This document shows, piece after piece, positions 14,040 through 29,161 of a stretch of 64,000 nucleotides of DNA. The stretch covers positions 62,001 to 126,000 of the forward strand of contig NZ_JAGGPQ010000016.1 of NCBI RefSeq assembly GCF_018613675.1, read 5' to 3'. Position 1 is the stretch's first letter. Every line of letters starts with the position of its first letter. Origin of the DNA: Arthrobacter sp. ISL-85. Lineage in GTDB: Bacteria; Actinomycetota; Actinomycetes; Actinomycetales; Micrococcaceae. The notes under the pieces were generated by a model, which worked only from the letters and a program-made list of their open reading frames with translations, searched no databases and was not told where the DNA came from. A program made the translations under genes and the position numbers.

Positions 14040-14924
14040 TCAGATGGCCTGCGCCTCGGAGCGGTTCGGCGGCCGCCACTTGAGGATCCTGTGTTCAAGC
14101 AGGTTGATCAGGGACTCGGCAAAAAGCGTGACGACGGCGATGATCACCATGCACGCGAACACCGTGTTCGGATCGAACGTGCCCTGTGCCTGGCTGATGA
14201 TGAGGCCGATTCCCTTCTGGGCACCAAGCACCTCGGCCACGAGGGCGCCAATGATCGCGAAGCCGAACGCGGTGTGGAGGCTGGCGATGATCCAGGTCAT
14301 TGCGGACGGTATGGTCACGTGCATCGCCACCTGGTACGGGGAAGCTCCGAGCACGCGCACGTTGGCCACGAGGTTCTGGTCCACCTCCCGGACTCCCTGG
14401 AAGGCGTTGAAGAACACCACGAAGAAGACCAGCACGGCCGCCAGCAGGATCTTCGGGAAGACCCCCAGGCCGAACGCCACGATGAAGATCGAGCCGAGCA
14501 CAATACGCGGGATCGAATTCACGATCCTGATGTAGGGCCCGACGACGGCCGACAGGTACTTGTTGGAGCCCAGGAGGATGCCGAGCACCACGCCCACGGC
14601 CGTTCCCAGCAGGAAGCCGAGGAATGCTTCCTGCGCGGTAACACCGAGGTTTTCCCAGATGGTGCCGAAGGCCGTACCTTCGGTGAAGAGCACCACCAGG
14701 CTGTTCCAGATTTCCGAGGGCTGGCCGAAGAAGAACTTATCCACCCACCCCTCCGTGGTGAACCACTGCCAGCCGCCCACAACGGCGACTGCCAGGACCA
14801 CGCGGCCAATCCAGATGGACATGGAGCGGCGGCGGGCTTTGATCCGGCCCGCGATCTTTGCTGCTGTCTCTGTTTCCACTGGCTTCTCGCTTTTGCGGGT
14901 TTCGCTATGGGTGAGGGCCGTCAT
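14040..14924 (-). CDS. ABC transporter permease, SsuC/TauC-like
   Basis: 294 residues with a basic cytoplasmic N-terminus (about 1-35) and six membrane segments. The EAA coupling loop reads VRVLGASPYQVAMHVTIPSA, the ATPase contact of binding-protein-dependent importers. It overlaps the ATPase gene by 4 bp (ATGA), so the two are translationally coupled, and precedes the binding-protein gene by 69 bp. Confidence 0.9.
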   Translation of the reverse strand: MTALTHSETRKSEKPVETETAAKIAGRIKARRRSMSIWIGRVVLAVAVVGGWQWFTTEGWVDKFFFGQPSEIWNSLVVLFTEGTAFGTIWENLGVTAQEAFLGFLLGTAVGVVLGILLGSNKYLSAVVGPYIRIVNSIPRIVLGSIFIVAFGLGVFPKILLAAVLVFFVVFFNAFQGVREVDQNLVANVRVLGASPYQVAMHVTIPSAMTWIIASLHTAFGFAIIGALVAEVLGAQKGIGLIISQAQGTFDPNTVFACMVIIAVVTLFAESLINLLEHRILKWRPPNRSEAQAI

Positions 14925-15775
14925 GCCGCACCTGCCGTCATGGCATAGGCGCGGGTGACCTCGTCTTTGAGGGACTCCCAGATGCGGCCTTGGAGCTCCA
15001 GGAACCGCTCCTCGTGGCGGATCTCCTGGACGTTGCCGCGGGGCCGGGGAAGGTCGATGTCGAAGACGTCCTTGACCGAACCGGGGCTGCTGGTCATGAT
15101 GACCACGCGGTCAGAGAGTGCAACTGCCTCGTCCAGGTCATGGGTAATAAACAGGACGGAAGGGCGCAGTTCTTCCCAGAGCTTGAGCAGTTCGTTTTGC
15201 ATGATGGCTTTGGTCTGCACGTCCAGTGCCCCAAAGGGCTCATCCATAAGGAGGATCCGCGGATTGTTGATGAGCGCGGCCGCCATGGCGACGCGCTTGC
15301 GCATGCCGCCGGAGAGCTGGTGCGGGTAGCGGTCCTCGAATCCGGCCAGGCCCACGCGGCGCAGCCAGTCCCTGGCGAGGTCCGTGGCCTGGCGCTTTGG
15401 CATCCCGAGCAGGATGGGTCCCATCATGACGTTGCTGAGGACGCTCTTCCAGGGAAACAGGGCGTCTGCCTGGAACATGTAGCTCACTCCCTTGGTGATG
15501 CCGTCCACGGGGTTGCCGCCGACCGTCACCGAGCCGGCACTTGGCTGTTCGAGTCCCGAGACCTGGGCCAGGGTGGTGGATTTGCCGCAGCCTGTGGGTC
15601 CAACGATGGAGCAGAACTGGCCGGCTTCGACGCTGAGGCTCACATCCCTGATCGCCGTGAAGGTTTCACCCTTGGGGGTGAGGTAGCGCTTGGTCAGGCC
15701 GGTGACCTCGATCCGGCCCTCCTCCGCCGCTTTGGCTGGAGGGCCGGGCGGCCGGGGTGTGCGGGCTGTGTTCAT
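14921..15775 (-). CDS. ABC transporter ATP-binding protein, SsuB/TauB-like
   Basis: 284 residues. Walker A GPTGCGKST, signature LSGGMRKRVAMA, Walker B ILLMDEPFGALD and the switch His in FITHDLDEA are all present. I chose ATG 15775, 8 nt after GCGAGG; a TTG 12 codons upstream keeps the frame open but has no such site. First gene of the importer operon, divergent from the sensor kinase. Confidence 0.92.
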   Translation of the reverse strand: MNTARTPRPPGPPAKAAEEGRIEVTGLTKRYLTPKGETFTAIRDVSLSVEAGQFCSIVGPTGCGKSTTLAQVSGLEQPSAGSVTVGGNPVDGITKGVSYMFQADALFPWKSVLSNVMMGPILLGMPKRQATDLARDWLRRVGLAGFEDRYPHQLSGGMRKRVAMAAALINNPRILLMDEPFGALDVQTKAIMQNELLKLWEELRPSVLFITHDLDEAVALSDRVVIMTSSPGSVKDVFDIDLPRPRGNVQEIRHEERFLELQGRIWESLKDEVTRAYAMTAGAA

Positions 15776-15902
15776 TGCAAGACCTCGCTGTCTTCTGTTC
15801 AAGGAGTTCAAGGTTCGTGACGGGGATCACTGGAACTGTGTGTAGTTTAGGAAGTGTTCATTCCGGCCAGAAAGACTTCAGTAAGATGTGTGCTTTAGCC
15901 GC

Positions 15903-15959: not shown

Positions 15960-17600
15960 TTGAGTTGGGCGTCCCTGGCGCCGCGGCTCCGGCTCGGACG
16001 GCGTTTCACCACGCTGACCGCCCAGATCCTCCTGGCCTCGCTGTCGCTGCTGCTCTTCACCGTGGTCCTGGGCGGCTTTCTTTACTCGATCATCAGCAAC
16101 CAGACTCTGGACCAGCAGTACCAGTTGCGTGCCCTGGGCATTGCGGCCACCACCGCACAGATGCCGGAAATCCGCTCCGCGCTGGCTGCAGGGGATCCGG
16201 ACCATGCCATCGACGGCATCGCCCATGAAGTAATGGCCGCTGCCAGGCCCGACTACGTGGTGGTCAGCGATGCGGAAGGCACGCGGTTCTCGCACCCGGA
16301 CCCGGCGTTGATTGGCCGCAAACTGGAGGAACCGGTGGCGGTCCTCGATGGCCAAACCCACGTGGGTTTCGACCCCGGAAGCCTTGGCCGGTCTGCCAAC
16401 GCCAAGGCCCCGGTCTTTGGCGCCAACGGCGTGGTCATCGGCCAAGTGTCGGTGGGGATAGAGGACACCCAGGTCCTCAGCAACCAAATGCAGAACATCT
16501 GGCTTATCACCGGCTTCTCAGCGCTGGTCCTTGCCCTTGGAGTCGCCGGTTCGCTGCTGCTCTCCCGGCGCATCAAACGTGTCACCTTCGACTTGGAGCC
16601 GGCCGAGATTGCTTCGCTGCTGCAGGAACGCGAGGCGTTGCTGCACGGAATCCGGGAGGGCGTCGTCGGGCTGGACGACGACGGCAAAGTGACGGTGATC
16701 AACGAGGAGGCCCGGAGGCTCCTGCACCTCGAGGGGGAAGCCTTGGGGAAGCCCATCACCGACCTGCTTCCGCACGGCCGGCTGCGGTCCCTGTTTGCCG
16801 GGCGGCTGCCCGGCGCAGACCAAGTGGCCCTGACCGAGGACGCCCTGCTGGTTGTCAACCGGATGCCCGTGGCCACCGCCGGGCGCACCATCGGTTCGGT
16901 GGTCACGCTTCGGGACCGCACCGAGATTGAAGGGCTGGTGCGGGACCTTCATTCCATCCAAGGCCTCATGGAGGCAATGCGGGCGCTCGAACACGAGTAC
17001 GCCAACCGGCTCCACATCGTGGACGGCCTGCTGGAGATGGGGAACCTGGACCAGGCCAAACGATACGTCTCACAGGTCTCCACCATGTCCAGATCGCTGG
17101 GCGAACGGCTGCGCGCCACGATTGCCCCGCCGGAACTTGCGGCCTTGCTGCTGGCCAAGGTGGCGGTCGCCGCCGAACAGGACGTGCAGATGGAGGTAAC
17201 GGCGGACTCCCGGCTGGAACATCCGGAGGTTGACCACACAGATTTGGTGACCATCGTGGGCAACCTCCTCGACAACGCGGTGGACGCACTGTCCAATACG
17301 CCGCGGCCGCGCCTTGTGACGGTACAGTTCGACGACGCGGACGGTGTATTCATTGCCGTCCGCGACAACGGCCCCGGCGTACCGGCGGACAAGATCGACC
17401 AGGTCATGGTGGACGGGTACTCCACGAAGGACCCGCGGCCGGGGATGCGGCGCGGCATCGGGCTGGCCCTGGTGAGCAGGATTGTGCGAAGGGCAGGGGG
17501 GACACTGGACGTGTTCCCTGGGCCCGGCGGTAATTTTGAGGTGTGGCTTCCGGCAAAGACGCCGGCAGCAGTTGAAGACAGGAGCGCGGGCGTTGATTAA
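15960..17600 (+). CDS. CitA/DcuS-family sensor histidine kinase
   Basis: 546 residues from a TTG start (15960) with an AGGGGGC site upstream. Membrane segment at about 20-45, an extracytoplasmic CitA/DcuS-type sensing domain (about 50-175), a second membrane segment (about 180-203), a cytoplasmic PAS domain (about 220-325), then RALEHEYANRLH with the phosphoacceptor His345. The ATPase domain has N-box NLLDNAVDAL, DNGPGVP and GIGLAL. Known members sense citrate or C4-dicarboxylates outside the cell; here the target transporter is the divergent NMT1-like ABC importer, so the ligand may differ. It overlaps the regulator gene by 8 bp. Confidence 0.92.
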   Translation: MSWASLAPRLRLGRRFTTLTAQILLASLSLLLFTVVLGGFLYSIISNQTLDQQYQLRALGIAATTAQMPEIRSALAAGDPDHAIDGIAHEVMAAARPDYVVVSDAEGTRFSHPDPALIGRKLEEPVAVLDGQTHVGFDPGSLGRSANAKAPVFGANGVVIGQVSVGIEDTQVLSNQMQNIWLITGFSALVLALGVAGSLLLSRRIKRVTFDLEPAEIASLLQEREALLHGIREGVVGLDDDGKVTVINEEARRLLHLEGEALGKPITDLLPHGRLRSLFAGRLPGADQVALTEDALLVVNRMPVATAGRTIGSVVTLRDRTEIEGLVRDLHSIQGLMEAMRALEHEYANRLHIVDGLLEMGNLDQAKRYVSQVSTMSRSLGERLRATIAPPELAALLLAKVAVAAEQDVQMEVTADSRLEHPEVDHTDLVTIVGNLLDNAVDALSNTPRPRLVTVQFDDADGVFIAVRDNGPGVPADKIDQVMVDGYSTKDPRPGMRRGIGLALVSRIVRRAGGTLDVFPGPGGNFEVWLPAKTPAAVEDRSAGVD

Positions 17601-18261
17601 GACGCTGGTAGTGGACGACGATTTCCGGGTTGCGGCTATCCACGCCGCACGGGTGGCCCGGGTGGACGGGTTCGAGTGCGTGGGCCAGGTGTACAGTGCG
17701 GCAGCGGCGCGGCAAGCAATTGCGCAGCTGAATCCTGACCTGCTCCTGCTGGACATCCACTTGCCGGACGAGGATGGGCTTTCCCTCCTGCGGTCCCTGC
17801 AGGCAGCCGGAAAACAGGTTGATTGCATTGTCATTACGGCAGCCCAGGACTTGGCGACCGTCAAGTCAGCGATGACCAGCGGAGCCGTGTACTACCTTGT
17901 TAAGCCCTTTGGGTTTGACCGGCTTCGCACGCAGTTGGAGGCCTACCGGAAGTGGCGGGAAGAGTTGGAATCGGCGTCGACAGCCAGCCAGGCAACCATT
18001 GACAGCCTCTACAAGGCCCGTTTGGCCGGGATCAAGGCGGTTGCTCCGGCACCACGGCTGCAACCCACCATGCAGAAAGTGTTCGACGCCGTCCGTGCAG
18101 CCCGCGGGCCGGTTAACGCTGCCGAAATTGCCGAGCAACTCGGCGTCAGCCGGCCGACTGCCCAGCGTTACCTGAGCACGCTGGAACGCAAGGGCCTCCT
18201 GGTCCTGGACCTCGCCTACGGCAATACCGGGCGGCCTTTGAATTCCTACACCATTTCATGA
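17593..18261 (+). CDS. CitB/DcuR-family response regulator
   Basis: 222 residues. The receiver domain (about 1-120) has acidic pocket Asp8-Asp10, phosphoacceptor Asp54 (LLLDIHLPDEDG), the Thr in VITAAQ and the conserved Lys of LVKPF. A C-terminal helix-turn-helix (about 160-205, AAEIAEQLGVSRPTAQRYL) is typical of the CitB group. The TTG at 17593 is chosen because AGGAG lies 9 nt upstream and it gives the family N-terminus MIKTLVVDDD. It is translationally coupled to the kinase and probably controls the divergent importer. Confidence 0.92.
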   Translation: MIKTLVVDDDFRVAAIHAARVARVDGFECVGQVYSAAAARQAIAQLNPDLLLLDIHLPDEDGLSLLRSLQAAGKQVDCIVITAAQDLATVKSAMTSGAVYYLVKPFGFDRLRTQLEAYRKWREELESASTASQATIDSLYKARLAGIKAVAPAPRLQPTMQKVFDAVRAARGPVNAAEIAEQLGVSRPTAQRYLSTLERKGLLVLDLAYGNTGRPLNSYTIS

Positions 18262-18450
18262 GGCGGGCCGGAGGTTCCGTGTGCGCAGCCAAGGGTGCTG
18301 GTTGGATAGAAGTGCAGGTCAGGGGCCAGTTGAACTTTCAAATAACTTGAGCCTTTGTTGACTCTTTACCCCCTCACTTTTTGAGGTTGGCCCTGCAAAG
18401 TTGTCCTCAGTTAGACCACAGCGCACCAACCAAGTCTGAGGGGACACATC

Positions 18451-18984
18451 ATGAAGAACAGCACTTTGATCAAGGGAACCGCTGCCATCGCCGTTGGCGC
18501 CGCATTGCTGCTGGGCGGCGGGGGCACCCTGGCCAACTGGAACGCTGAAGCTACCGCCGCACCGGGCACCATCGTTTCCGGCGACCTGAACGTCACAACG
18601 GGCAGCGGCACATGGACAGACCGTTCCGGCAATCCCGTCAACATCGCAGCCTACAAGGTAGTTCCGGGCGACAAGCTCACCTTCACCCAGACCCTCAATG
18701 TAACGTTGGTCGGCGACAAGATGGCCGCCAACGTGGCTACTACCGGCACCGCAACCAACGGCTTCACCCCGGCCAATGTGTCGGTCTCCGCACCTGTCCT
18801 GACCGTAGGCGGTACGGCTGTCTCCAACCCGCTCAAGCCCACGGGTTCCATGCAGACCGTCACTGCGACGGTAACTTTCGAGTTCCTGTCCACCACGACA
18901 GGCCGCGCGGACACCACCGCGAGCTACAACTTCAACAACGTGGCATTCCAGCTGACCCAGATCACCCAGCCCGGTCTTTCGTAG
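18451..18984 (+). CDS. SipW-type signal exported protein 1 (RER_14450-like)
   Basis: 177 residues. The N-terminus has a short basic start, a hydrophobic core (about 8-28) and the tell-tale tryptophan just after it (TLANWNAEA, Trp30), the pattern of alternate signal peptides processed by SipW/ER-type signal peptidases in Bacillus TasA and actinobacterial relatives. The mature part is Thr/Val-rich, beta-strand-like and lacks cysteine, as in fibre-forming TasA-like proteins. It resembles the actinobacterial RER_14450 family as I remember it. First gene of a four-gene locus with its own peptidase. Assembly into fibres is inferred. Confidence 0.85.
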   Translation: MKNSTLIKGTAAIAVGAALLLGGGGTLANWNAEATAAPGTIVSGDLNVTTGSGTWTDRSGNPVNIAAYKVVPGDKLTFTQTLNVTLVGDKMAANVATTGTATNGFTPANVSVSAPVLTVGGTAVSNPLKPTGSMQTVTATVTFEFLSTTTGRADTTASYNFNNVAFQLTQITQPGLS

Positions 18985-19053
18985 CCTGATATGCCGGGTG
19001 GCCCCAGGGCCACCCGGCCGGCAGCTTCAGGAGACAGGACCAGGAGGAACCAC

Positions 19054-19665
19054 ATGCGTATCAAGCGCTCACTTGAGGCGGCGGCGTTGATCGCCGTAGC
19101 AGTGGTTCTGGGTCTGTTCACGGTGCAGGGAACTTATGCGTTGTGGAACGCCACTGCGGTTGCCGCACCCGGAACCATAAGCTCGGCGTCGTTCGATATG
19201 GCGCTTCAAGCGGTCAACACCGGCACGTCGACCAACATGACGCTCGCGGACGGCAAGACCTCGGCAACCCTGACATTGTCTCCAGCCGGAACGTTGGGTC
19301 CGGGCACTTCGGTGTATGGCGGAGTGGTGGTCACCAACAATACCTTTGCCGGTGGCCAGTTCAACACCGCTATCACGGCAGGACAGCCGGGCGTTGCGAA
19401 CCTCAACGGCGGAGTGCTTGCCACGTACATCACCGTCAGCGCGAAGTTGGCAGCTTCGCCTACGGAATGCAGCGCGTCCACCGGTTATGCGGCGATCGGT
19501 GCGCCAGGGCTCATCTCGCCCGCTGTAGCCAAAACAGGGTCAACCGTGTTCTGCTTCCAGGTCAGCCTCGATCCCAGCGCCCCATCAACAGTGAAAGGAC
19601 AAGCAGTGACAATCCAAACTACACTCACCGCACGTCAGCTCTGCGGGGTGCCCAGTGGCTGCTGA
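19054..19665 (+). CDS. SipW-type signal exported protein 2
   Basis: 203 residues from ATG 19054 with AGGAGGA upstream. The signal has the same layout as protein 1: basic start, hydrophobic core, then TYALWNATA (Trp31) and the shared AAPGTISS. The mature domain is beta-rich, with four cysteines (CSAS, FCFQ, QLCGVPSGC) that could form two disulfides, unlike protein 1. It overlaps the signal peptidase gene by 11 bp, which ties the pair together. Function as matrix or fibre component is inferred from the TasA analogy. Confidence 0.83.
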   Translation: MRIKRSLEAAALIAVAVVLGLFTVQGTYALWNATAVAAPGTISSASFDMALQAVNTGTSTNMTLADGKTSATLTLSPAGTLGPGTSVYGGVVVTNNTFAGGQFNTAITAGQPGVANLNGGVLATYITVSAKLAASPTECSASTGYAAIGAPGLISPAVAKTGSTVFCFQVSLDPSAPSTVKGQAVTIQTTLTARQLCGVPSGC

Positions 19666-20299
19666 TCTGACCGAACGCCTTCTCGGCGGTGCAGCCGAAC
19701 CGTCGAAGCGGTGGACCGGGACTACGGCGCACACCCCGCAAAGTCGAGGCAAACGCAAAGCCGCCTGGGCCGCCGTCGGACGCCTTGCCAGCATGGCCGC
19801 CCTGCTGGTTGCCCTGTTCGCCGCCCTCGTCCTGATCGTGGTACCAGTGGCGACTGGCTCGCAGACCTACACGATCCTGACCAAGTCCATGGCGCAGAAG
19901 TATCCGCCGGGCACCTTCATGGTGATGAAACCCGTGCCGTTTGAAGACCTCAAGTATGGCGATGTGATCACCTTCCAGATCTACTCGGGCCGCCCGGACG
20001 TGGAAACGCACCGGATTGTCGGTTTCGGATCCACCCAGCAGGGCGATAAGACGCTGATCACCAAGGGTGACAACAACGGCGCAAACGATGCCAGCCCCGT
20101 TCGTGCCATCCAGGTCAAGGGAAAACTGTTCTATGCCGTCCCGTACGTGGGTTTCGTGGCGAACTTCCTGGGGAACTCCGACCGGGGGACGTGGACTGTC
20201 GTCGCGGCCGTGGCCCTCATCGGCTACGGAGCCATCACCGTGTACAAGTCCGTCCGCAAGAGCCGCAAGCGCGATGACTTGGCTGCCGAGGCGGGGTAG
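19655..20299 (+). CDS. sipW: SipW/ER-type signal peptidase I (S26B)
   Basis: 214 residues, GTG start overlapping the previous gene. A cytoplasmic N-terminus is followed by a membrane segment (about 46-66), the catalytic domain and a second membrane segment (about 178-200). Instead of the bacterial Ser-Lys dyad it carries the archaeal/ER-type set: Ser78 (TILTKSMAQ), His119 (VETHRIVGF) and Asp139 (ITKGDNN). It is expected to cleave the three neighbouring alternate-signal proteins on the outer face of the membrane. The gene symbol is by analogy with Bacillus. Confidence 0.9.
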   Translation: MAADLTERLLGGAAEPSKRWTGTTAHTPQSRGKRKAAWAAVGRLASMAALLVALFAALVLIVVPVATGSQTYTILTKSMAQKYPPGTFMVMKPVPFEDLKYGDVITFQIYSGRPDVETHRIVGFGSTQQGDKTLITKGDNNGANDASPVRAIQVKGKLFYAVPYVGFVANFLGNSDRGTWTVVAAVALIGYGAITVYKSVRKSRKRDDLAAEAG

Positions 20300-20794
20300 A
20301 TGTTGAAGTTCCGGAACCTTCCAGGTGCGGCGCTCGCCGTCGGGGCCTTCGCGCTCACGGTGCTGCTCGGTATTGGCGGCGCCTCGGCGTCGGCGCTCTG
20401 GCAGCAAAGTGCCACGACGACCATGACGGTCACCGCATCCGGAACCTGGTCCGCGCCAGTGTTCGCTACTCCGGTTTGCAGCAATGTAGACAGCGCCAAC
20501 AAGTACGTCTCACTCGGGTACTCAGGGTTCTCCGAAGCTCCGGCAAAGTTCACCTTCTCGGCAGCCGGAACCAATGGCGTCTACGGGACAAGTGCGGACA
20601 TGGCCGGCCCGTTCGGTACCTCCGGGAGTTTGTCGCTCTTCGGCGACTCCACGATCTTTACCCAAGTCGCCACCACGCCGGCAACGGTGAAGATTGTGGC
20701 AACGTTCTCGGGCGGTGTTCAGGCCACCGCCTACGTGAAGGTGAACCTTGAGATAGGCACAGGCAACAAGAAGATCTACTGCGTTCCGGTCTAG
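20300..20794 (+). CDS. SipW-type signal exported protein 3
   Basis: 164 residues starting immediately after the peptidase stop codon. Hydrophobic segment about 9-32 followed by ASALWQQSA (Trp34), again the SipW-type pattern. The mature part is Ser/Thr/Gly-rich and beta-like, with two cysteines (PVCSNVD, IYCVPV) placed so that one disulfide could close the domain. Sequence differs clearly from proteins 1 and 2, so it may play a different role, such as the minor or anchoring component. Confidence 0.78.
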   Translation: MLKFRNLPGAALAVGAFALTVLLGIGGASASALWQQSATTTMTVTASGTWSAPVFATPVCSNVDSANKYVSLGYSGFSEAPAKFTFSAAGTNGVYGTSADMAGPFGTSGSLSLFGDSTIFTQVATTPATVKIVATFSGGVQATAYVKVNLEIGTGNKKIYCVPV

Positions 20795-22136: not shown

Positions 22137-22218
22137 TGTTGACCCAGCCGAAACATTCCGGCGCCCCTTCTCCCGTAACCTTAAATGCAGGACTTTTCAG
22201 GGAAGGACCCATCAGAGC

Positions 22219-23058
22219 ATGGAAACCACGGACACCGTCGTGAAGCCCGTCATCGGGCTCAGCACTTACCTCGAGCAGGCGGACACCGCCGGCTGTGGTG
22301 CCCTCAGTGCCGCCTTCCTGCCGGAAACTTACCTCGCGCCGATTATTGCCGCCGGCGGCATCCCCACCCTGCTTCCGCCCCAGCCCGTGGCGCAGGGCGT
22401 GATCGAAATCCTGGTAAGCCGGCTGGACGGCCTGCTGATTCCGGGCGGCTGGGACGTGGACCCGGCCCTCTACGGACAGGAACCACACCCGCGCACTGAC
22501 CAGCCGCGGCCCGAACGGGACGCCTGGGAACAGGCCCTGATCCGGGAGGCACTCCGACAGGACGTCCCGCTGCTGTGCATCTGCCGCGGTGAGCAGTTGC
22601 TGAACGTGACCCTGGGCGGCACGCTGCACCAGCATCTGCCCGAAGTGGTTGGGCACGGCGAGCACCAGCTGGGCGGCTTCCAGTACAACCGGATCCCGGT
22701 GGAAGTACGGCCGGAATCCCAGCTCGCGCAGCTGATAGGTGCCGATATCCAGCTGGTTCCAGTGGCCCACCACCAGGCTGTGGACAAGCTGGGCGAGGGC
22801 CTGGTGGCATCGGCGTGGACGGAAGAGCACGTGGTGGAGGCCATCGAATATCCCCCGGCCACTTTCGCCATGGGCATTCAGTGGCACCCCGAGGAACTGT
22901 CTGAGGACTACGGGCTCTTCCAGGGGTTCGTCGAAGCAGCCCGGGCGAAGTACCTGTCCCGCCTGCGCCCGGCAACGCCGTCGTCCGTTGCTGACTCACC
23001 CGCGTCTTTCCTGGCAACTTCAGTCCCGGCGATCTCGGTGAACCCGGAAGCCTTCTGA
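22219..23058 (+). CDS. Class I glutamine-amidotransferase-like gamma-glutamyl hydrolase (peptidase C26, PuuD-like)
   Basis: 279 residues. The nucleophile is Cys122 in LLCICRGEQLLNV, and the His-Glu pair is in QWHPE (His223, Glu225). The long LLIPGGWDVDPALYGQ segment is typical of gamma-glutamyl-GABA hydrolases (PuuD) in polyamine catabolism. The ATG at 22219 has AAGGA at a loose 13 nt. The C-terminal 30 residues after GLFQGFVEAARAKYL look disordered. It heads a same-strand group with a GCS2 ligase, decarboxylase-like enzyme, amidotransferase and dipeptidase, so gamma-glutamyl compounds are its likely substrates. Confidence 0.88.
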   Translation: METTDTVVKPVIGLSTYLEQADTAGCGALSAAFLPETYLAPIIAAGGIPTLLPPQPVAQGVIEILVSRLDGLLIPGGWDVDPALYGQEPHPRTDQPRPERDAWEQALIREALRQDVPLLCICRGEQLLNVTLGGTLHQHLPEVVGHGEHQLGGFQYNRIPVEVRPESQLAQLIGADIQLVPVAHHQAVDKLGEGLVASAWTEEHVVEAIEYPPATFAMGIQWHPEELSEDYGLFQGFVEAARAKYLSRLRPATPSSVADSPASFLATSVPAISVNPEAF

Positions 23059-23128
23059 CCTGCTGGAACTCCGCGAAAGCTGCCGGGAGAGCCGGGTTAT
23101 GGCGTCACCCATCCTTGCGGTAAAGAAA

Positions 23129-23148
23129 TAAGCATGCTTAGTATATGG
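23129..23148 (+). promoter_or_regulatory. Shared 20-bp palindromic motif, copy 1 (upstream of GCS2 gene)
   Basis: TAAGCATGCTTAGTATATGG begins with a perfect 12-bp palindrome (23129-23140). It matches 17 of 20 bases of the element at 35570-35589 in front of the NRAMP-like gene. Both lie about 55-70 bp before the start codon. The shared extension beyond the palindrome suggests an operator fused to a promoter element. No matching regulator is encoded beside either copy. Confidence 0.6.
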
Positions 23149-23199
23149 AAGTGAGGTGAAGCAAGAGCCCTACTATTGCTGGCCTGGGAGTAGTGTGCG

Positions 23200-24429
23200 A
23201 TGACGCGCAGAGTGGGTGTTGAAGAAGAGTTCCTCATAGTCGACGGCGCCAACGGCCACCCCGTGGCGTTGGGGCAGGTGATGCAGCGGGTGTCGGAGTA
23301 CCCCAACCTCAGCAGCGAAATGAAGCAGGAACAGATAGAAACCTGTACGCTTCCCAGGCTGACCCTCGCGGAAATTTCCCAGGACATCGTGGCGGGCCGC
23401 AGGAACGCCGACGCCCTGGCCCGGCTGGCCGGTGCGAGGGCAGTTGCGCTGGCGACGTCTCCGCTGCCCGTTGACTCGACGGTGGCGCCCGGTGAACGCT
23501 GCGGCCAGCTCATGGCACGGTATGGGCTGACCGCGGTGGAGCAGCTTACCTGCGGCTGCCACGTGCACGTGGAGATCGAATCGGACGAGGAAGGCGCGGC
23601 CATCCTGGACCGCATCCGGATCTGGCTGCCGGTACTGCAGGCCATCGCCTCCAACTCGCCGTTCTGGAACGGCAACGATTCGGGCTATGCGGGCTACCGC
23701 TCCCAGGCGTGGAACCGTTGGCCCACCACCGGGCCCAGCGGGATTTTTGGGTCGGCCGCCGCCTACCACGCCCACGTCCGGCAAATCCTGGGCTCCGGGG
23801 TCCCCCTGGACAAGGCAAGCCTTTACTTTGACGCCCGGCTCAGCGACCGCCACCCCACTGTTGAAGTCCGGATCGCGGACGTCTGCCTCTTTGCGGACGA
23901 CGCGGTCCTGGTGGCCGCACTGGTGCGGGCGTTGGCAGAGACAGCAGCCAGGCAATGGCGCGACGGCGTGTCCCCGGCACCGGTGCCCACGGCCCAGGTG
24001 CGCCTCGCCTCCTGGCAAGCCAGCCGGTTTGGCCTGGAAAGCGACCTTATCCATCCCGCACTGGGCGAGCCGCGGCCGGCCTCCGACGTGCTTTCCGCAC
24101 TGCTGGATTACGTCCGCCCCGTGCTGGCGGAACAGGGCGAACTGGAAACAGTGGAGTTGCTGCTGTTCCAGGTGATGGCCAGGGGGACGGGGGCCGTGGC
24201 CCAGCGCGAGGTATTCGCCCGCACCGGCAGCCTGGCCGCCATGATTGCCCAGGCCATCCACAGCACTGCCCTGCCCGCCATGGCCCATCACCGGCAGGAC
24301 GACCAAGCTCCCGAACCCAATCCCGCCCTAGCAACTCCCGACCCCAATCCCGCCCCGCCCGATCCCGTCCGCGGCCAGGCGCCGGACCACGGTCAAGGTA
24401 CCGCGGTCCTGGACAACCAGCCCCTCTAA
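23200..24429 (+). CDS. Carboxylate-amine ligase, GCS2/YbdK family
   Basis: 409 residues. ATP-dependent ligases of this family join the carboxyl group of glutamate (or another acid) to an amine such as cysteine. Family features are VGVEEEFLIVD at the N-terminus, TCGCHVHVEIESDEE, and the GYRSQAWNRWPTTGP block. The C-terminal 45 residues are a Pro/Asn/Asp-rich disordered tail with repeated PNPA-like units. ATG 23200 has GGGAG about 8 nt upstream. The PLP enzyme follows 18 bp later. Whether it makes gamma-glutamylcysteine or a gamma-glutamyl amine is open; the neighbours favour the latter. Confidence 0.88.
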   Translation: MTRRVGVEEEFLIVDGANGHPVALGQVMQRVSEYPNLSSEMKQEQIETCTLPRLTLAEISQDIVAGRRNADALARLAGARAVALATSPLPVDSTVAPGERCGQLMARYGLTAVEQLTCGCHVHVEIESDEEGAAILDRIRIWLPVLQAIASNSPFWNGNDSGYAGYRSQAWNRWPTTGPSGIFGSAAAYHAHVRQILGSGVPLDKASLYFDARLSDRHPTVEVRIADVCLFADDAVLVAALVRALAETAARQWRDGVSPAPVPTAQVRLASWQASRFGLESDLIHPALGEPRPASDVLSALLDYVRPVLAEQGELETVELLLFQVMARGTGAVAQREVFARTGSLAAMIAQAIHSTALPAMAHHRQDDQAPEPNPALATPDPNPAPPDPVRGQAPDHGQGTAVLDNQPL

Positions 24430-24447
24430 CCGACGCAGGAGGTCCCC

Positions 24448-25941
24448 GTGGACCAGAATGAAATGGATCAGAACCAGGCGCCAGTAATAGACGCGCTGGC
24501 GGAACACCAGAAGCTGGGGCGGTACGGTTTTACCCCGCCCGCGCACAGGCAGGGCCGGGTGGTGGACCCCCGCGTGCTGGAGGTGCTGGGCGAACAAAGC
24601 TTCAAGGCCGACGTCGTTGCCTCCTCGGGCCTGGACGACAGGAAGTCCTCCAACGGCTACCTGTCCAAGGCGGAAAAGCTGTTGGCGGCCGCTGTCGGGG
24701 CTGACCAGGCGTTCTTCTCCACCTGCGGCAGTTCACTCTCCATCAAGGCTGCCATCCTGGCCGTGACCCGGGGCGAAGGGGAACTCCTCATCAGCCGGGA
24801 CGCGCATAAGTCGGTCACGTCCGGCCTGGTGTTGTCGGGGCTGCAGCCGCGGTGGATCAAACCCCGCTGGGACAATGAGCTGAAGATGAGCCACCCGCCC
24901 GCGCCCGAGACAGTGGAGGAGATGTGGCAGCGCTACCCGGATGCGTCGGCGGCCCTGATCGTGAGCCCCACCCCGTACGGGACGTGCGCGGACCTGGAAG
25001 CCATCGTTGAAATCTGCCACAAGCGGGGCAAGCCGCTGATTGTGGACGAAGCGTGGGGCGCGCAACTGCCCTTCCACCCGGACACCCCCACCTGGGCCAT
25101 GTCTGCCGGCGCCGATATCTGCGTGGTCAGCGTCCACAAGATGGGCCTGGGGTTTGAACAAGGCTCCATCTTCCACCTGCAGGGAGGCCTGGTGGACCCG
25201 GTCCGCCTCAGCCAGTGCGCGGACGTCCTGTCCACCACCAGCGCCAACACCCTGATCTACGGGGCCATGGACGGCTGGCGGCGGCAAATGGTGCAGGAAG
25301 GCAAGGCCATGATCGACAAGGCCCTGGGCCTGGCGCGCCGCGTGCGCAAAGAGATCGAGGCCATTCCCGGCCTCCATGTCCTGGAGGATGAGCTGGTCCA
25401 TGCGGAGGCCTCCCATGACCTGGACATCCTGCACGTCCTGGTTGACGTCTCACAGCTGGGCATCAGCGGCTACCAGGCCACCGACTGGCTTCGCGGGAAC
25501 TGCCGCATCGACCTTGGTACCAACGACCACCGGCGCGTCGAGGCCGTAATGTCCGTGTCGGACGATGACGACACGGCGAAGCTGCTGCTGGACGGCCTGC
25601 GCGCGCTGGTTGATGCCGCGCCGTCCCTGCCCCGGCCGCCCGCCGTCGTGATCCCCGATGAGAAGGACCTCTTCCTGGAAACGGTGATGCTGCCCCGTGA
25701 TGCCTTCTTTGGGCCGGTGGAAGTGGTCCCGGTGGAGGAAGCGGCCGGCCGGATTGCCGCCGAGATGGCGACGCCCTATCCGCCCGGAGTGCCGCTGCTG
25801 CTGCCCGGCGAACGGATCAACCAGGCGGCCATCGACTACCTGCGCAGCGGCGTGGAGGCGGGCATGGTCCTGCCCGATCCTGCCGACCCGACCCTGAAGA
25901 CCATCCGGGTTGTCCGCGAAGAACACCACAAACAGCAGTAG
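24448..25941 (+). CDS. PLP-dependent Orn/Lys/Arg decarboxylase-like enzyme, copy 1
   Basis: 497 residues from a GTG start with AGGAGGT just upstream. Fold type I PLP enzyme of the Orn/Lys/Arg decarboxylase major-domain group: GFTPPAHRQG (family HTPxHxxG region), FSTCGSSLSIKAAILA, DEAWGAQLPFHP, and the PLP lysine Lys231 in VSVHKMGLGFEQG. The C-terminal part (about 400-490) with LPRDAFFGP and LPGERIN matches the decarboxylase C-terminal domain. It would release a diamine or similar amine from a basic amino acid. A close paralog is at 37062-38522. The specific substrate is not deducible; SpeA-like arginine decarboxylation is one possibility. Confidence 0.87.
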   Translation: MDQNEMDQNQAPVIDALAEHQKLGRYGFTPPAHRQGRVVDPRVLEVLGEQSFKADVVASSGLDDRKSSNGYLSKAEKLLAAAVGADQAFFSTCGSSLSIKAAILAVTRGEGELLISRDAHKSVTSGLVLSGLQPRWIKPRWDNELKMSHPPAPETVEEMWQRYPDASAALIVSPTPYGTCADLEAIVEICHKRGKPLIVDEAWGAQLPFHPDTPTWAMSAGADICVVSVHKMGLGFEQGSIFHLQGGLVDPVRLSQCADVLSTTSANTLIYGAMDGWRRQMVQEGKAMIDKALGLARRVRKEIEAIPGLHVLEDELVHAEASHDLDILHVLVDVSQLGISGYQATDWLRGNCRIDLGTNDHRRVEAVMSVSDDDDTAKLLLDGLRALVDAAPSLPRPPAVVIPDEKDLFLETVMLPRDAFFGPVEVVPVEEAAGRIAAEMATPYPPGVPLLLPGERINQAAIDYLRSGVEAGMVLPDPADPTLKTIRVVREEHHKQQ

Positions 25942-25978
25942 GAACCTGAAAACCGCAGTAAACAGCAAGGAATACAAC

Positions 25979-27760
25979 ATGTGTGGCATAGCCGGCGAAA
26001 TCGCATTCAATGGCAGGGCGGCGTCGGGGGAAGCAGTTCTGAAAATCATGGGGGCCATGACCTCCCGGGGACCGGACGGAAGGGGAAGCTGGAGCGGCGG
26101 CTGGGTTGCGTTGGGGCACCGGCGGCTGAGCATCATCGACCTCTCCGACGCAGGGTCCCAGCCCATGGAGGACGACGGTGGCCTCACCATCGCCTTCAAC
26201 GGCTGCATCTACAACTACCAGGAGCTGCGCCGGGAACTGGAGCCCGAGTTCCGCTTCCGGTCTACCAGTGACACCGAGGTGATCCTCAAGGCCTACCGGA
26301 AATGGGGTGGTGACTTTGTCCACCACCTGGCAGGCATGTTCGCGATCGCCATCTACGATCCGCAGCGGGAGGAAGTCCTCCTTGTCCGCGACCGGCTGGG
26401 CATCAAGCCGCTGTACGTTTCGCACCTGCCCGGGAAGATGCGCTTCGCGTCCACGCTGCCCGCGCTGGTTGCCTCCGGCGGGATCGACACCGGCATCGAC
26501 GAGGTGGCTCTGCACCACTACCTGAGCTGGCACTCGATCGTGCCGGCGCCGCACACCATCCTGCGCGGTGTCCGCAAGCTGCCGGCCGCCACCATCCGCA
26601 CCGTCCGCGCTGACGGGACGTGGCATGACCGCGAGTACTGGCGGCCGGAGTACACCCGGAAGCCAGAGCACGCGGGCTGGTCCGCTGCCGACTGGCAGGA
26701 CGCCGTGCGGGATTCCTTGCGGACAGCAGTACGACGCCGGATGGTGGCCGATGTGCCGGTAGGTGTCCTTTTGTCCGGGGGACTGGATTCCAGCCTCCTG
26801 GTTGCCCTGCTCGCGGAAGAGGGCCAGCACGGACTGTCCACGTTCAGCATCGGGTTCGACGACGGTGCCGGCGGTGACGCCGGGAACGAGTTCGAGTACT
26901 CGGACCTGGTGGCACGCGAATTCGGTACCCGGCACGAACGGCTGCACGTTTCCACCGCTGATTTTGCGCCCTCGATCGGGGACGCGCTCGAGGCCATGTC
27001 GGAGCCCATGGCCAGCCACGACGTCACCGCTTTCCACCTGCTCTCCGACACGGTGTCCCGGCATCTGAAGGTGGTGCAGTGCGGGCAGGGCGCGGACGAG
27101 GTGTTCGGCGGCTACGGCTACCACCAGCCCCTGGCCGGTGTGCCGCGCGAACAGGCCCTGGCTGCCTTTACTGCCTCTTTCGTTGACCACAGCCACGAGG
27201 AACTCCTGAGGATCCTGGAACCGGAGTGGTACGCCGGTTCCGATGTCAGCGGCAGGGTCCTGGCCAGCCACTTGGCGGCTCCGGGCGCGGAAACCGCGTT
27301 GGACGCTGTCCTCCGCCTCGACACCCACCTGCTCATGGTGGACGATCCGGTAAAGCGGCTGGACAACATGAGCATGGCCTGGGGGCTTGAGGCCCGGGTG
27401 CCGTTCCTGGACCACGAACTGGTGGAACTGGCGGCCTCGTGCCCGCCGGAACTCAAGGCAACGCAGGGCGGCAAGGGAATCCTGAAAGACCTGGGCCGGC
27501 AGCTGCTGCCGGCGGCCGTGATCGACAGGCCCAAAGGGTATTTCCCCGTCCCGGCCCTGCGGCACCTGGAGGAACCGTTCATCACCATGGTCACCGACGC
27601 CCTCCACGCCCCCGAGGCCAAACAACGCGGCTTGTTCCGCCCGTCCTACATCGACAGGCTCCTGGAGGATCCCAACAGCCAGCGCACACCGGTGAAAAGC
27701 AACGTCCTGTGGCAGTTCGCGCTGCTGGAAATGTGGCTGCAGCGCCACGGTGTGGGGTAG
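25979..27760 (+). CDS. AsnB-type amidotransferase resembling N-acetylglutaminylglutamine amidotransferase
   Basis: 593 residues. Cys2 (MCGIAGE) opens the class II glutaminase domain (about 2-210); the synthetase domain has the PP-loop LLSGGLDSS and GQGADEVFGGYGYHQ. The blocks SEPMASHDVTAFHLLSD, DDPVKRLDNMSMAWGLEAR and RPKGYFPVPALRHLEE match the family that amidates N-acetylglutaminylglutamine in osmoprotectant clusters, rather than housekeeping AsnB. The usual partner, a GNAT/ATP-grasp dipeptide synthetase, is absent; a GCS2 ligase stands nearby instead. AAGGA precedes the ATG at 7 nt. The assignment to this family is from memory of its sequences; the actual substrate is unknown. Confidence 0.85.
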   Translation: MCGIAGEIAFNGRAASGEAVLKIMGAMTSRGPDGRGSWSGGWVALGHRRLSIIDLSDAGSQPMEDDGGLTIAFNGCIYNYQELRRELEPEFRFRSTSDTEVILKAYRKWGGDFVHHLAGMFAIAIYDPQREEVLLVRDRLGIKPLYVSHLPGKMRFASTLPALVASGGIDTGIDEVALHHYLSWHSIVPAPHTILRGVRKLPAATIRTVRADGTWHDREYWRPEYTRKPEHAGWSAADWQDAVRDSLRTAVRRRMVADVPVGVLLSGGLDSSLLVALLAEEGQHGLSTFSIGFDDGAGGDAGNEFEYSDLVAREFGTRHERLHVSTADFAPSIGDALEAMSEPMASHDVTAFHLLSDTVSRHLKVVQCGQGADEVFGGYGYHQPLAGVPREQALAAFTASFVDHSHEELLRILEPEWYAGSDVSGRVLASHLAAPGAETALDAVLRLDTHLLMVDDPVKRLDNMSMAWGLEARVPFLDHELVELAASCPPELKATQGGKGILKDLGRQLLPAAVIDRPKGYFPVPALRHLEEPFITMVTDALHAPEAKQRGLFRPSYIDRLLEDPNSQRTPVKSNVLWQFALLEMWLQRHGVG

Positions 27761-27763
27761 GGC

Positions 27764-29161
27764 ATGGCAGTAGCGTCCGGCGCAGGCCGGGACGTGCCGG
27801 CGGATCTGCGCCAGGCCGTCCACGGCGACTTTCCTGCCGCCGTGGACCAACTCTCGGCGCTGGTCAGGATCCCCGCCATGGCCTGGGACTCCTTCGACCC
27901 CTCGCAGCTGGACCAGGCCGCGCTGCAGGTGGCGGAGTTGCTCCGCGGTGCCGGCCTGGCCGACGTCGACATCCTGCAGGCGCCGCGGCCGGAGGGCACC
28001 CCCGGTGCACCTGCCGTGGTGGGACGCCGGCACGCAGCACAGGGCAAACCCACCATCCTGCTGTACGCGCACTATGACGTCCAGCCCGCTGGCCAGCTGG
28101 AACTTTGGGAGAGCCCGCCGTTCGAAGCGGTGGAGCGCGGCGGCCGGCTGTGGGGCAGGGGAGTGGCGGACAACAAGGCCGGGGTGCTGCTGCACGTGGC
28201 CGCCGTCCGCAATGCGCTCCGGGTCCTGGACGGCCGTCTGGGCGTGGGGATCACTGTGTTCGTCGACGGCGAGGAGGAGGCGGGCTCGCCGTCACTGCCC
28301 CAGCTGCTGCAGCAGCACGCCGACCTGCTGCGGGCGGATGTGCTGGTGGTGGCCGACTCGGGGAACTGGAAGGTGGGCGTGCCGGCCCTGACCACCAGCC
28401 TCCGCGGGCTGATCCTGGGAACCATCGAGGTGCGGGTGCTGGAGCACGCCCTGCACTCCGGGACGTACGGCGGTCCACTGGTGGATGCGGTGGCCGCGCT
28501 GTCCCGCCTCATCGCGTCCTTCCACCACGACGACGGCAGCGTGGCGGTGGAGGGCCTGCTGGCTGTGGAGGAGCCCGGCCCGCCGTTGTCCGAGGCTGAA
28601 TTCCGGGCTGATTCGCGTGTCCGCCCTGGGGTGCCCCTTGCCGGCACGGGATCCTTGACGTCCAGGCTGTGGACCAAACCGGCGATGGCCATCATCGGGA
28701 TCGATGCGCCTTCCGTGGCACTGTCCTCCGACACGTTGCAGCCGGCGGCCCGGGCCAGGTTCAGCCTCAGCCTGGCGCCGGCATCCGACACGGCGGCGGC
28801 CATGGAGGCGGTCCGCCGGCATGTGGAGACGCATGTGCCTTTCGGGGCGGAGGTGGTGTTCACCCCCGGTGGCCGGACCCAGGGGTTTGCCGGGGATGCA
28901 CACTCCCGTTCATCGGAGCTGATGCTGGCCGCCATGGGTGACGTGTGGGGTGTTCCGGCTGTCTCGATGGGCGTGGGCGGCTCGATCCCCGCCGTGAACA
29001 TTCTGAACAAGCTGTTCCCGGAGGCGGAAATCCTGGTCACCGGCGCCGAGGACCCTGACTCCCGGGCCCATGGGGCCAACGAGTCCATCCACCTGGGCGA
29101 TTTCGAAAACGCGATCCTGGCCGAGGCTGTGCTGCTGGCCCGCCTCAACGCCGCGGACTAA
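27764..29161 (+). CDS. M20-family metallodipeptidase
   Basis: 465 residues, starting 3 bp after the amidotransferase stop, so cotranscribed. Two-zinc M20 signature: YAHYDVQP (His), GRGVADNKAG (bridging Asp), DGEEEAGSPS (catalytic Glu and zinc Glu), a later Asp in VADSGNWK and the terminal His of HGANESIHL. A dimerisation/lid domain is inserted at about 210-350. Related enzymes (CNDP/PepV group) split dipeptides. In NAGGN-type clusters a peptidase also accompanies the amidotransferase, though of another family, so a role in turnover of the cluster's product is plausible. Confidence 0.9.
   Translation: MAVASGAGRDVPADLRQAVHGDFPAAVDQLSALVRIPAMAWDSFDPSQLDQAALQVAELLRGAGLADVDILQAPRPEGTPGAPAVVGRRHAAQGKPTILLYAHYDVQPAGQLELWESPPFEAVERGGRLWGRGVADNKAGVLLHVAAVRNALRVLDGRLGVGITVFVDGEEEAGSPSLPQLLQQHADLLRADVLVVADSGNWKVGVPALTTSLRGLILGTIEVRVLEHALHSGTYGGPLVDAVAALSRLIASFHHDDGSVAVEGLLAVEEPGPPLSEAEFRADSRVRPGVPLAGTGSLTSRLWTKPAMAIIGIDAPSVALSSDTLQPAARARFSLSLAPASDTAAAMEAVRRHVETHVPFGAEVVFTPGGRTQGFAGDAHSRSSELMLAAMGDVWGVPAVSMGVGGSIPAVNILNKLFPEAEILVTGAEDPDSRAHGANESIHLGDFENAILAEAVLLARLNAAD

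Follow-up and report, generated by a model that had tools for sequence, protein, structure and literature searches.

SipW-TasA fibres have been worked out in Bacillus and, structurally, also in archaea, where the archaeal bundling pilus is a rod of a single subunit. The present work concerns a locus of four genes, named A, B, C and D, within 64,000 nucleotides of the genome of the actinobacterium Arthrobacter sp. ISL-85 (the window, i.e. the whole stretch of DNA that was analysed). C encodes a SipW-like signal peptidase, while A, B and D encode its likely substrates. We hold with moderate confidence that the operon specifies a donor-strand filament dependent on SipW, in which A and B are paralogous subunits and D is a variable end subunit.

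According to the accessible part of PMC10269814, TasA carries phenylalanine at its second mature position and is cut by SipW, and an aromatic residue at this position hinders LepB of E. coli. The block of LepB by the TasA signal was traced there to the region P3 to P4', mainly to the tryptophan at P2. The donor strand of TasA comprises residues 28-38, right after the cut, and archaeal bundling pili are TasA-like, donor-strand-complemented fibres (available sections of PMC9674648). TapA combines a donor-like N-terminus with a complete immunoglobulin (Ig) domain and, as far as the excerpt of PMC10151520 states, is not conserved even within Bacillus.

Organisation and conservation of the operon

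The four genes lie on the + strand in a tight run (18451-20794) that is taken to be one operon. The features are:

18270 to 18450, + strand: upstream region of A with conserved blocks and a ribosome-binding site, from an alignment of 23 upstream regions; putative promoter
18451 to 18984, + strand: gene A, probable TasA/camelysin-like subunit of family TIGR04089 (exp_by_SipW_III), from NCBIfam, hhalign to mature TasA and the model
19054 to 19665, + strand: gene B, probable second filament-type subunit and paralogue of A, from the A-B profile match and the fold matches 7ueg and 8aur
19655 to 20299, + strand: gene C, signal peptidase I of the endoplasmic reticulum (ER)/archaeal type (SipW-like), from TIGR02228, the invariant Ser78-His119-Asp139 and the SEC11 match
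20300 to 20794, + strand: gene D, likely third substrate, from its signal, a conserved strand-like N-terminal segment and a fast-changing body
20396 to 20437, + strand: proposed donor strand, codons of L33-A46 of D, from conservation and an alternation pattern; putative function

The products comprise 177 (A), 203 (B), 214 (C) and 164 (D) amino acids. B starts with an ATG at 19054 that has AGGAGG upstream. The GTG start of C lies within the last bases of B, so that the two genes overlap by 11 bases, and the ATG of D follows directly on the stop codon TAG of C. When the open reading frames (ORFs) were re-read, the coordinates and the overlap of B with the peptidase gene proved to be as given in the original prediction for this DNA.

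The peptidase as query gave 114 loci, of which the best 80 served as relatives; a separate set of 20 was used in addition. The order A-B-C was present in 76 of the 80. The automatic count of best matches was 74; L145 and L147 were added, as in both the best-matching A is an additional copy downstream and another A lies upstream. Of the four exceptions, L108 and L165 lie on short contigs, L152 has the peptidase alone and L163 has another order. In the separate set, 19 of 20 relatives had A-B-C and L071 had C alone. In rows titled Leifsonia, Frondihabitans, Agreia and Curtobacterium (e.g. L160, L164 and L166), the best-matching stretch of C lies further from B. A D-type gene follows C in all of the 25 nearest loci (L090-L114).

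Cysteine counts, trees and conservation were compared in 23 near loci, namely the window and 22 of these 25; L091 (B split over two ORFs) as well as L096 and L108 (contig ends) were dropped. DNA identity along the operon was compared with the window in 23 loci, L090-L113 without L108.

The signal peptidase and the signals of its likely substrates

C passes the NCBIfam model TIGR02228 with 75.2 (cut-off 51.85) and misses the equivalog model of Bacillus SipW, NF046067, with 64.8 bits (cut-off 190). Ser78, His119 and Asp139 are invariant in all 16 aligned sequences, i.e. in 15 of the separate 20 relatives and in the window's C. Against the PDB, the C profile matched SEC11A (expectation value (E) 1.6e-13) and SEC11C (E 3.4e-13) of the signal peptidase complex. 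The ER-type Ser-His-Asp peptidase that had been read from the letters was thus borne out by family, catalytic residues and the SEC11 match. C is the sole site over the TIGR02228 cut-off in its own genome, in which contig C17 contains two other type I peptidases.

The cleavage regions are TLANW in A, TYALW in B and ASALW in D. In all three proteins, the cut would follow an alanine and leave tryptophan as the second mature residue. The signal of A would accordingly span residues 1-28 with the cut before N29-W30, and B would be cut before L30-W31. Three secreted proteins with a hydrophobic core plus tryptophan in the signal had been predicted, and a tryptophan as second residue behind the presumed cut in each of A, B and D agrees with this.

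As a chance control, six-frame ORFs of at least 120 amino acids, which are mostly not genes, were scanned in the 80 relatives with a loose signal motif. With the first start codon only, the motif was found in 66/80 A, 77/80 B and 48/67 D proteins compared to 46/2189 other ORFs. When the start was allowed to slide, it was found in 80/80, 77/80 and 61/67, respectively, compared to 149/2189. Within the window, 8 of 207 ORFs had the motif at the first start, and A, B and D are three of these 8. Because the motif is rare in other ORFs by either count, three such signals in a row around a peptidase of this type, recurring in relatives, are unlikely to have arisen by chance.

The model for SipW signals, TIGR04088 (cut-off 19), was passed by A with 30.7. 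B remained below the cut-off with 15.7 and D was not listed at E up to 1; at this limit, 16 of 20 aligned B proteins touched the model. Given that A and C pass curated families and that three signals are present, the originally proposed actinobacterial SipW-type peptidase with three probable substrates is supported. Two sub-threshold matches to the signal model on contig C35 were considered as further substrates and dropped, the ORFs starting without a proper signal. With D as query, no second D was found in the own genome; D-type signals escape the signal model.

Relationship of A and B to each other and to TasA

A passes TIGR04089 (NCBIfam) with 133.1 bits (cut-off 60), and this model is matched by all 23 aligned A proteins at E up to 1 (best 1.1e-41). 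At the same limit, the TasA model NF046066 (NCBIfam) is touched by 7 of the 23 (best 6.9e-7) and the Pfam camelysin model PF12389 by 12 (best 7.7e-4), while neither model lists the A of the window. Taken at its name, the Pfam family of these distant relatives would make A a camelysin-type metallo-endopeptidase. The 12 of 23 proteins that touch PF12389 speak for it; yet histidine and the HExxH motif are absent from the window's A, B and D. The protease activity was rejected because A has no metal-binding histidine, and we regard it as extremely improbable. Camelysin loci were found in only 2 of 39 genomes and were not used as comparison set.

The profile of mature A was aligned to 90 residues of mature TasA with an hhalign score of 26.7; the best shuffle scored 20.9, and none of 200 reached the score. 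Mature A against mature B gave 31.4 over 89 columns, the best of 200 column-shuffled B profiles 19.2. Because these scores exceed the shuffled controls, A and B are distant paralogues, and A is a member of the TasA superfamily, taken broadly. The idea of three unrelated mature domains does not hold, since A and B are related over approx. 90 mature residues. As for the TasA-like character of the system, A can be kept as a distant homologue of TasA and camelysin, and B is tied in via A and by a fold that is not decisive.

Models of the single chains had a predicted local distance difference test (pLDDT) of 75 and a predicted template modelling score (pTM) of 0.69 for A, and 77 and 0.68 for B. 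For B, the first Foldseek match was the archaeal bundling pilus 7ueg (E 1.3e-3, probability 1.00, query template modelling score (TMq) 0.36). The TasA fibre 8aur (probability 0.96, E 3.2e-2) had a TMq of 0.43, the highest among the best 50 matches listed. The Sulfolobus filament 7pnb (probability 0.92) and type 1 pilus subunits also appeared lower in the list. Structure prediction, which had been proposed as a check, gave fold matches of B to the archaeal bundling pilin and the TasA fibre that are not decisive, and weak ones for A. Among the best 50 VIA-align matches listed for A, the TasA fibre did not occur, which is no evidence of absence. The stretch after the cut was predicted with low confidence (pLDDT under 50 for residues 24-43 of B, mean 51 for the block 31-40 of A), as an unpartnered strand would be, and equally a disordered region. 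Searching solved structures with the sequences of A, B and D yielded nothing meaningful; rows for a designed protein (E 0.003), antibodies and a glycosidase look like chance.

The window's A, B and D contain 0, 4 and 2 cysteines, respectively, exactly as counted before. Cys139 and Cys167 of B are invariant in 20 of 20 aligned sequences, and C197/C203 form an extra pair. B has four cysteines in 22 of the 23 near loci; in the wider alignment, it has two in 17 of 20, three in one and four in two. Because two is the rule there, the extra pair is a local addition of the near group. None of A, B and D in the window contains an LPxTG or LPxTA sorting motif, by which a sortase-anchored pilus would be recognised. 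Major, crosslinked and anchor roles, which the original prediction had derived from the cysteine counts, therefore do not follow.

Conserved start and variable body of D

The window's D was named by no family library scanned. Its two cysteines (Cys60 and Cys161) are present in all 23 near loci, and its D protein alignment comprises the window and 17 of the 22 other near-locus proteins. Across the near loci, the first 15 mature residues had a mean conservation of 0.90, compared to 0.79 for the signal and 0.51 for the remainder. Without the first four mature residues, conservation was still 0.87 at positions 37-47 compared to 0.51 at 48-164.

In distant loci, candidates for D were picked by their position after C and by their signal, not by similarity; tryptophan at mature residue 2 was part of the pattern. 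Downstream of C, 47 candidates were found in 39 of 45 distant loci, and 37 of them were also found by similarity to D; among the other ten, those of L137 and L138 have the same type of segment. With alanine counted as hydrophobic, the mature positions 8, 10 and 12 are hydrophobic in 77-79% of the 47 candidates and the positions 9, 11 and 13 in 30-34%. The segment is often followed by a stretch rich in G, A, P and T and by differing bodies, the proteins extending approx. 115 to 306 residues from the cut (37 candidates). This combination of a kept N-terminal segment and a changing body suggests a donor strand with an exchangeable head. From the cysteine spacing and the weak antibody rows, the body of the window's D may be guessed to be Ig-like.

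The same evidence bears on another explanation, namely that filaments form and D is a chaperone or anchor outside of them, its N-terminus only guiding export or assembly as has been proposed for CapP. D has no clear kinship to A or B, and a precedent is available: CapP, which is processed by SipW, serves as a chaperone-like third partner to two subunits of the TasA type (PMC13082335, in the portion accessible). However, a strand pattern in front of differing bodies would fit a plugged-in head better, and a chaperone should keep its body. We consider this role of D unlikely, if well worth bearing in mind.

Probable exchange of A and D between relatives

The DNA for the signal of A is 80-94% identical to the window in all 23 loci, that for mature A 59-81%. 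For mature D, identity was 48-57% in 19 of 23, which is close to the 39-50% of non-syntenic flanks; it was higher in L090 (83%), L091 (77%), L094 (76%) and L092 (66%). At the protein level, L090 shares 83% (B), 84% (C) and 84% (D) with the window, but only 44% in A. L093 shares 84% in A and 83% in C, but 38% in D.

In the 23 near loci, the A and D trees are in strong conflict with the B and C trees. On the A data, the topologies of B, C and D are rejected with differences in log-likelihood (delta lnL) of 306-585 (approximately unbiased (AU) test, at most 4.9e-6), and on the D data those of A, B and C with 457-745 (AU at most 4.9e-4). B and C differ much less, with delta lnL of 60 and 79 (AU 3.7e-4 and 2.2e-6), and for the B data the Shimodaira-Hasegawa test gave 0.089 between the B and C topologies. 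Because these two trees also differ, the core of B and C is not perfectly congruent. Single loci fit the pattern: L103 is like L102 and L106 in B, C and D and like L100 in A, while L097 and L098 agree in A, B and C and not in D. The simplest reading of the conflict would be recombination or allelic replacement of A and D, to which fast divergence and poor alignment may be adding.

Weighing of the filament reading

Several results weigh against a donor-strand filament of this composition. For the mature parts, the hhalign probability was only 35% between A and TasA and 47% between A and B; with the signals included, it was 84% and 96%. Mature B against TasA was not clearly above chance, as 1 of 200 shuffles reached the score. 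No Foldseek match of the A and B models fell under 0.001 and no VIA-align Z score reached 8. The TasA fibre 8aur came only at rank 11 in Foldseek for A (E 0.078), and the best VIA-align Z of A was 5.6, for sortase-type pilins. For B, VIA-align placed FimH (Z 7.9) above 7ueg (7.5) and 8aur (6.9), values at or below the typical level for models without a clear match. At P2, leucine (A), tyrosine (B) and serine (D) are found and not the tryptophan of TasA.

On the side of D, the profile matched B with a probability of 12%, in the signal, and A with 20%, over 29 columns near the C-terminus. Ten of the 47 candidates were not found by similarity to D, and eight of these are probably chance ORFs; the rows L149 and L151 are off register in the D-type segment. 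The alternation also depends on alanine: if it is not counted, the positions 8, 10 and 12 are hydrophobic in 36, 74 and 74% and the positions 9, 11 and 13 in 19, 4 and 26%. Finally, gene conversion close to the signal, or recognition by the peptidase, could also account for the N-terminal conservation of D.

Some of these points fit another view, in which A, B and D are separate secreted or wall-associated soluble proteins, e.g. binding proteins, that share one peptidase and form no filament. It draws on the weak fold statistics of A, on the lack of a family name for D and on the D-position protein of L082, which weakly resembles a cellulose-binding domain (E 0.004, below the cut-off). It does not account well for the homology of A to TasA and to B, for the fixed operon order and for the strand-like N-terminus of D, which is conserved well beyond the cleavage site. 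We judge it to be quite unlikely and prefer the filament.

Proposed assembly

The genes, catalytic residues, signals, A-B and A-TasA homology, synteny, conservation and tree conflict come straight from the sequence analysis; from homology, anatomy and conservation we infer a surface fibre, together with cleavage, filament formation, donor-strand exchange and the position of D. C would take the signals off A, B and D so that tryptophan becomes the second mature residue, a site at which aromatic side chains hinder the ordinary enzyme of E. coli. Once free, the N-terminus of each protein would be the donor strand that completes the β-sandwich of the next subunit. A and B would polymerise as paralogous pilin-type subunits, B being the more constrained one with its invariant cysteine pair. 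D would have the same kind of N-terminal strand on an unrelated, perhaps Ig-like body closed by its cysteine pair. Such a shared strand type on an unrelated body would put D at an end of the filament, where it would play the part of TapA or CapP and carry a variable head. From one species to the next, mature A and D would have been swapped or have diversified, with smaller changes in B, C and the signals.

A more far-reaching proposal, which we put forward tentatively and consider doubtful, is that the conserved donor strand, laid bare when SipW cuts, serves as a common plug that receives exchangeable heads in the course of evolution. Arthrobacter and its kin would share the core of B and peptidase and trade the D head and the A shaft through recombination close to the signal boundary. 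The filament would thereby be a variable recognition surface for adhesion, kin recognition or phage escape.

Distribution and neighbouring genes

Proteins of TIGR04089 were found in 63 of 149 genomes of the own family (60 over the cut-off), in only 2 of 8 listed genomes of the own genus and in 4 of 198 genomes drawn from the phylum, among which only the own genome was over the cut-off. The record titles of 58 of the best 80 relatives name Arthrobacter or Pseudarthrobacter. The system is centred on one family, patchy inside it, with outlying relatives in other actinobacterial families.

In L152 (Arthrobacter ipis; same contig as L071), the peptidase gene has no A, B or D nearby. The ORF after the peptidase of L071 resembles what we take to be a glucosamine-fructose-6-phosphate aminotransferase. 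L155 is titled Sporosarcina beigongshangi and has an actinobacterial operon; the record is mislabelled, contaminated or the operon was transferred. Between C and the D-type gene, L075, L079, L083, L084, L086 and L089 contain a protein of approx. 285-307 amino acids whose signal looks ordinary and whose C-terminus has a hydrophobic stretch followed by a basic tail. Three examples were scanned and matched no family over cut-off. The protein is possibly a membrane anchor; the operon of the window has no counterpart of it.

Upstream of A, the 23 aligned near loci have the consensus blocks CTTGxG, TTGA, TCCTGA and TGCAxxGT, and the window deviates from the consensus in TCCTGA. The spacer (18262-18450) is 49-81% identical in DNA to the window in 23 loci. 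The blocks within 18270-18450 likely form a shared promoter or a site for a regulator. At 15960-18261, a DcuS/DcuR-like pair of kinase and regulator is encoded, below the curated cut-offs. It was rejected as part of the system, since among the 23 near loci just 2 (L091 and L093) have its DNA conserved next to the operon. Beside it, 14040-15811 presumably encodes an ABC (ATP-binding cassette) transporter. Downstream, 22204-29158 contains genes resembling a gamma-glutamyl-GABA (gamma-aminobutyric acid) hydrolase, a decarboxylase and an M20-type peptidase, along with a carboxylate-amine ligase (TIGR02050, over the cut-off) and an N-acetylglutaminylglutamine amidotransferase (TIGR03104, 872 compared to 570 bits). 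This is perhaps a cluster for a dipeptide osmolyte.

Comparison with known systems

No description of a SipW-TasA-type locus in actinobacteria was found in the literature searched, the scope of which left out most subscription journals. NCBIfam comes nearest by name: A passes TIGR04089 and TIGR04088 and C passes TIGR02228, models that give a name only, without structure or tested function, and B and D pass none of the three.

The operon shares with tapA-sipW-tasA of B. subtilis an ER-type peptidase, an aromatic second mature residue and a TasA-like subunit. D resembles TapA in its cysteine pair, which is C60 and C161 in D and C92-C188 in the TapA Ig domain, and the peptidase start is overlapped by another gene in both cases, by tapA in B. 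subtilis (TapA data from the excerpt of PMC10151520) and by B here. It differs in gene order, with two paralogous subunits upstream of the peptidase and D downstream, and its sequence kinship is weak. The archaeal bundling pilus of Pyrobaculum calidifontis (7ueg) is the best Foldseek match of B, with only Z 7.5 and E 1.3e-3, and comes from an archaeon.

The nearest published layout is TasA-CalY-CapP of B. cereus, in which two paralogous filament subunits and an assembly partner are all processed by SipW; capP and calY are transcribed there apart from sipW-tasA (accessible part of PMC13082335), whereas all genes form one run here. D also differs from CapP in its conserved N-terminal strand and variable body. 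If the filament reading is true, this layout of a kept strand and a changing body offers a testable handle on filament capping and on the variation of exposed parts between species, and filaments of the class known from Bacillus and archaea are also made by a common group of actinobacteria.

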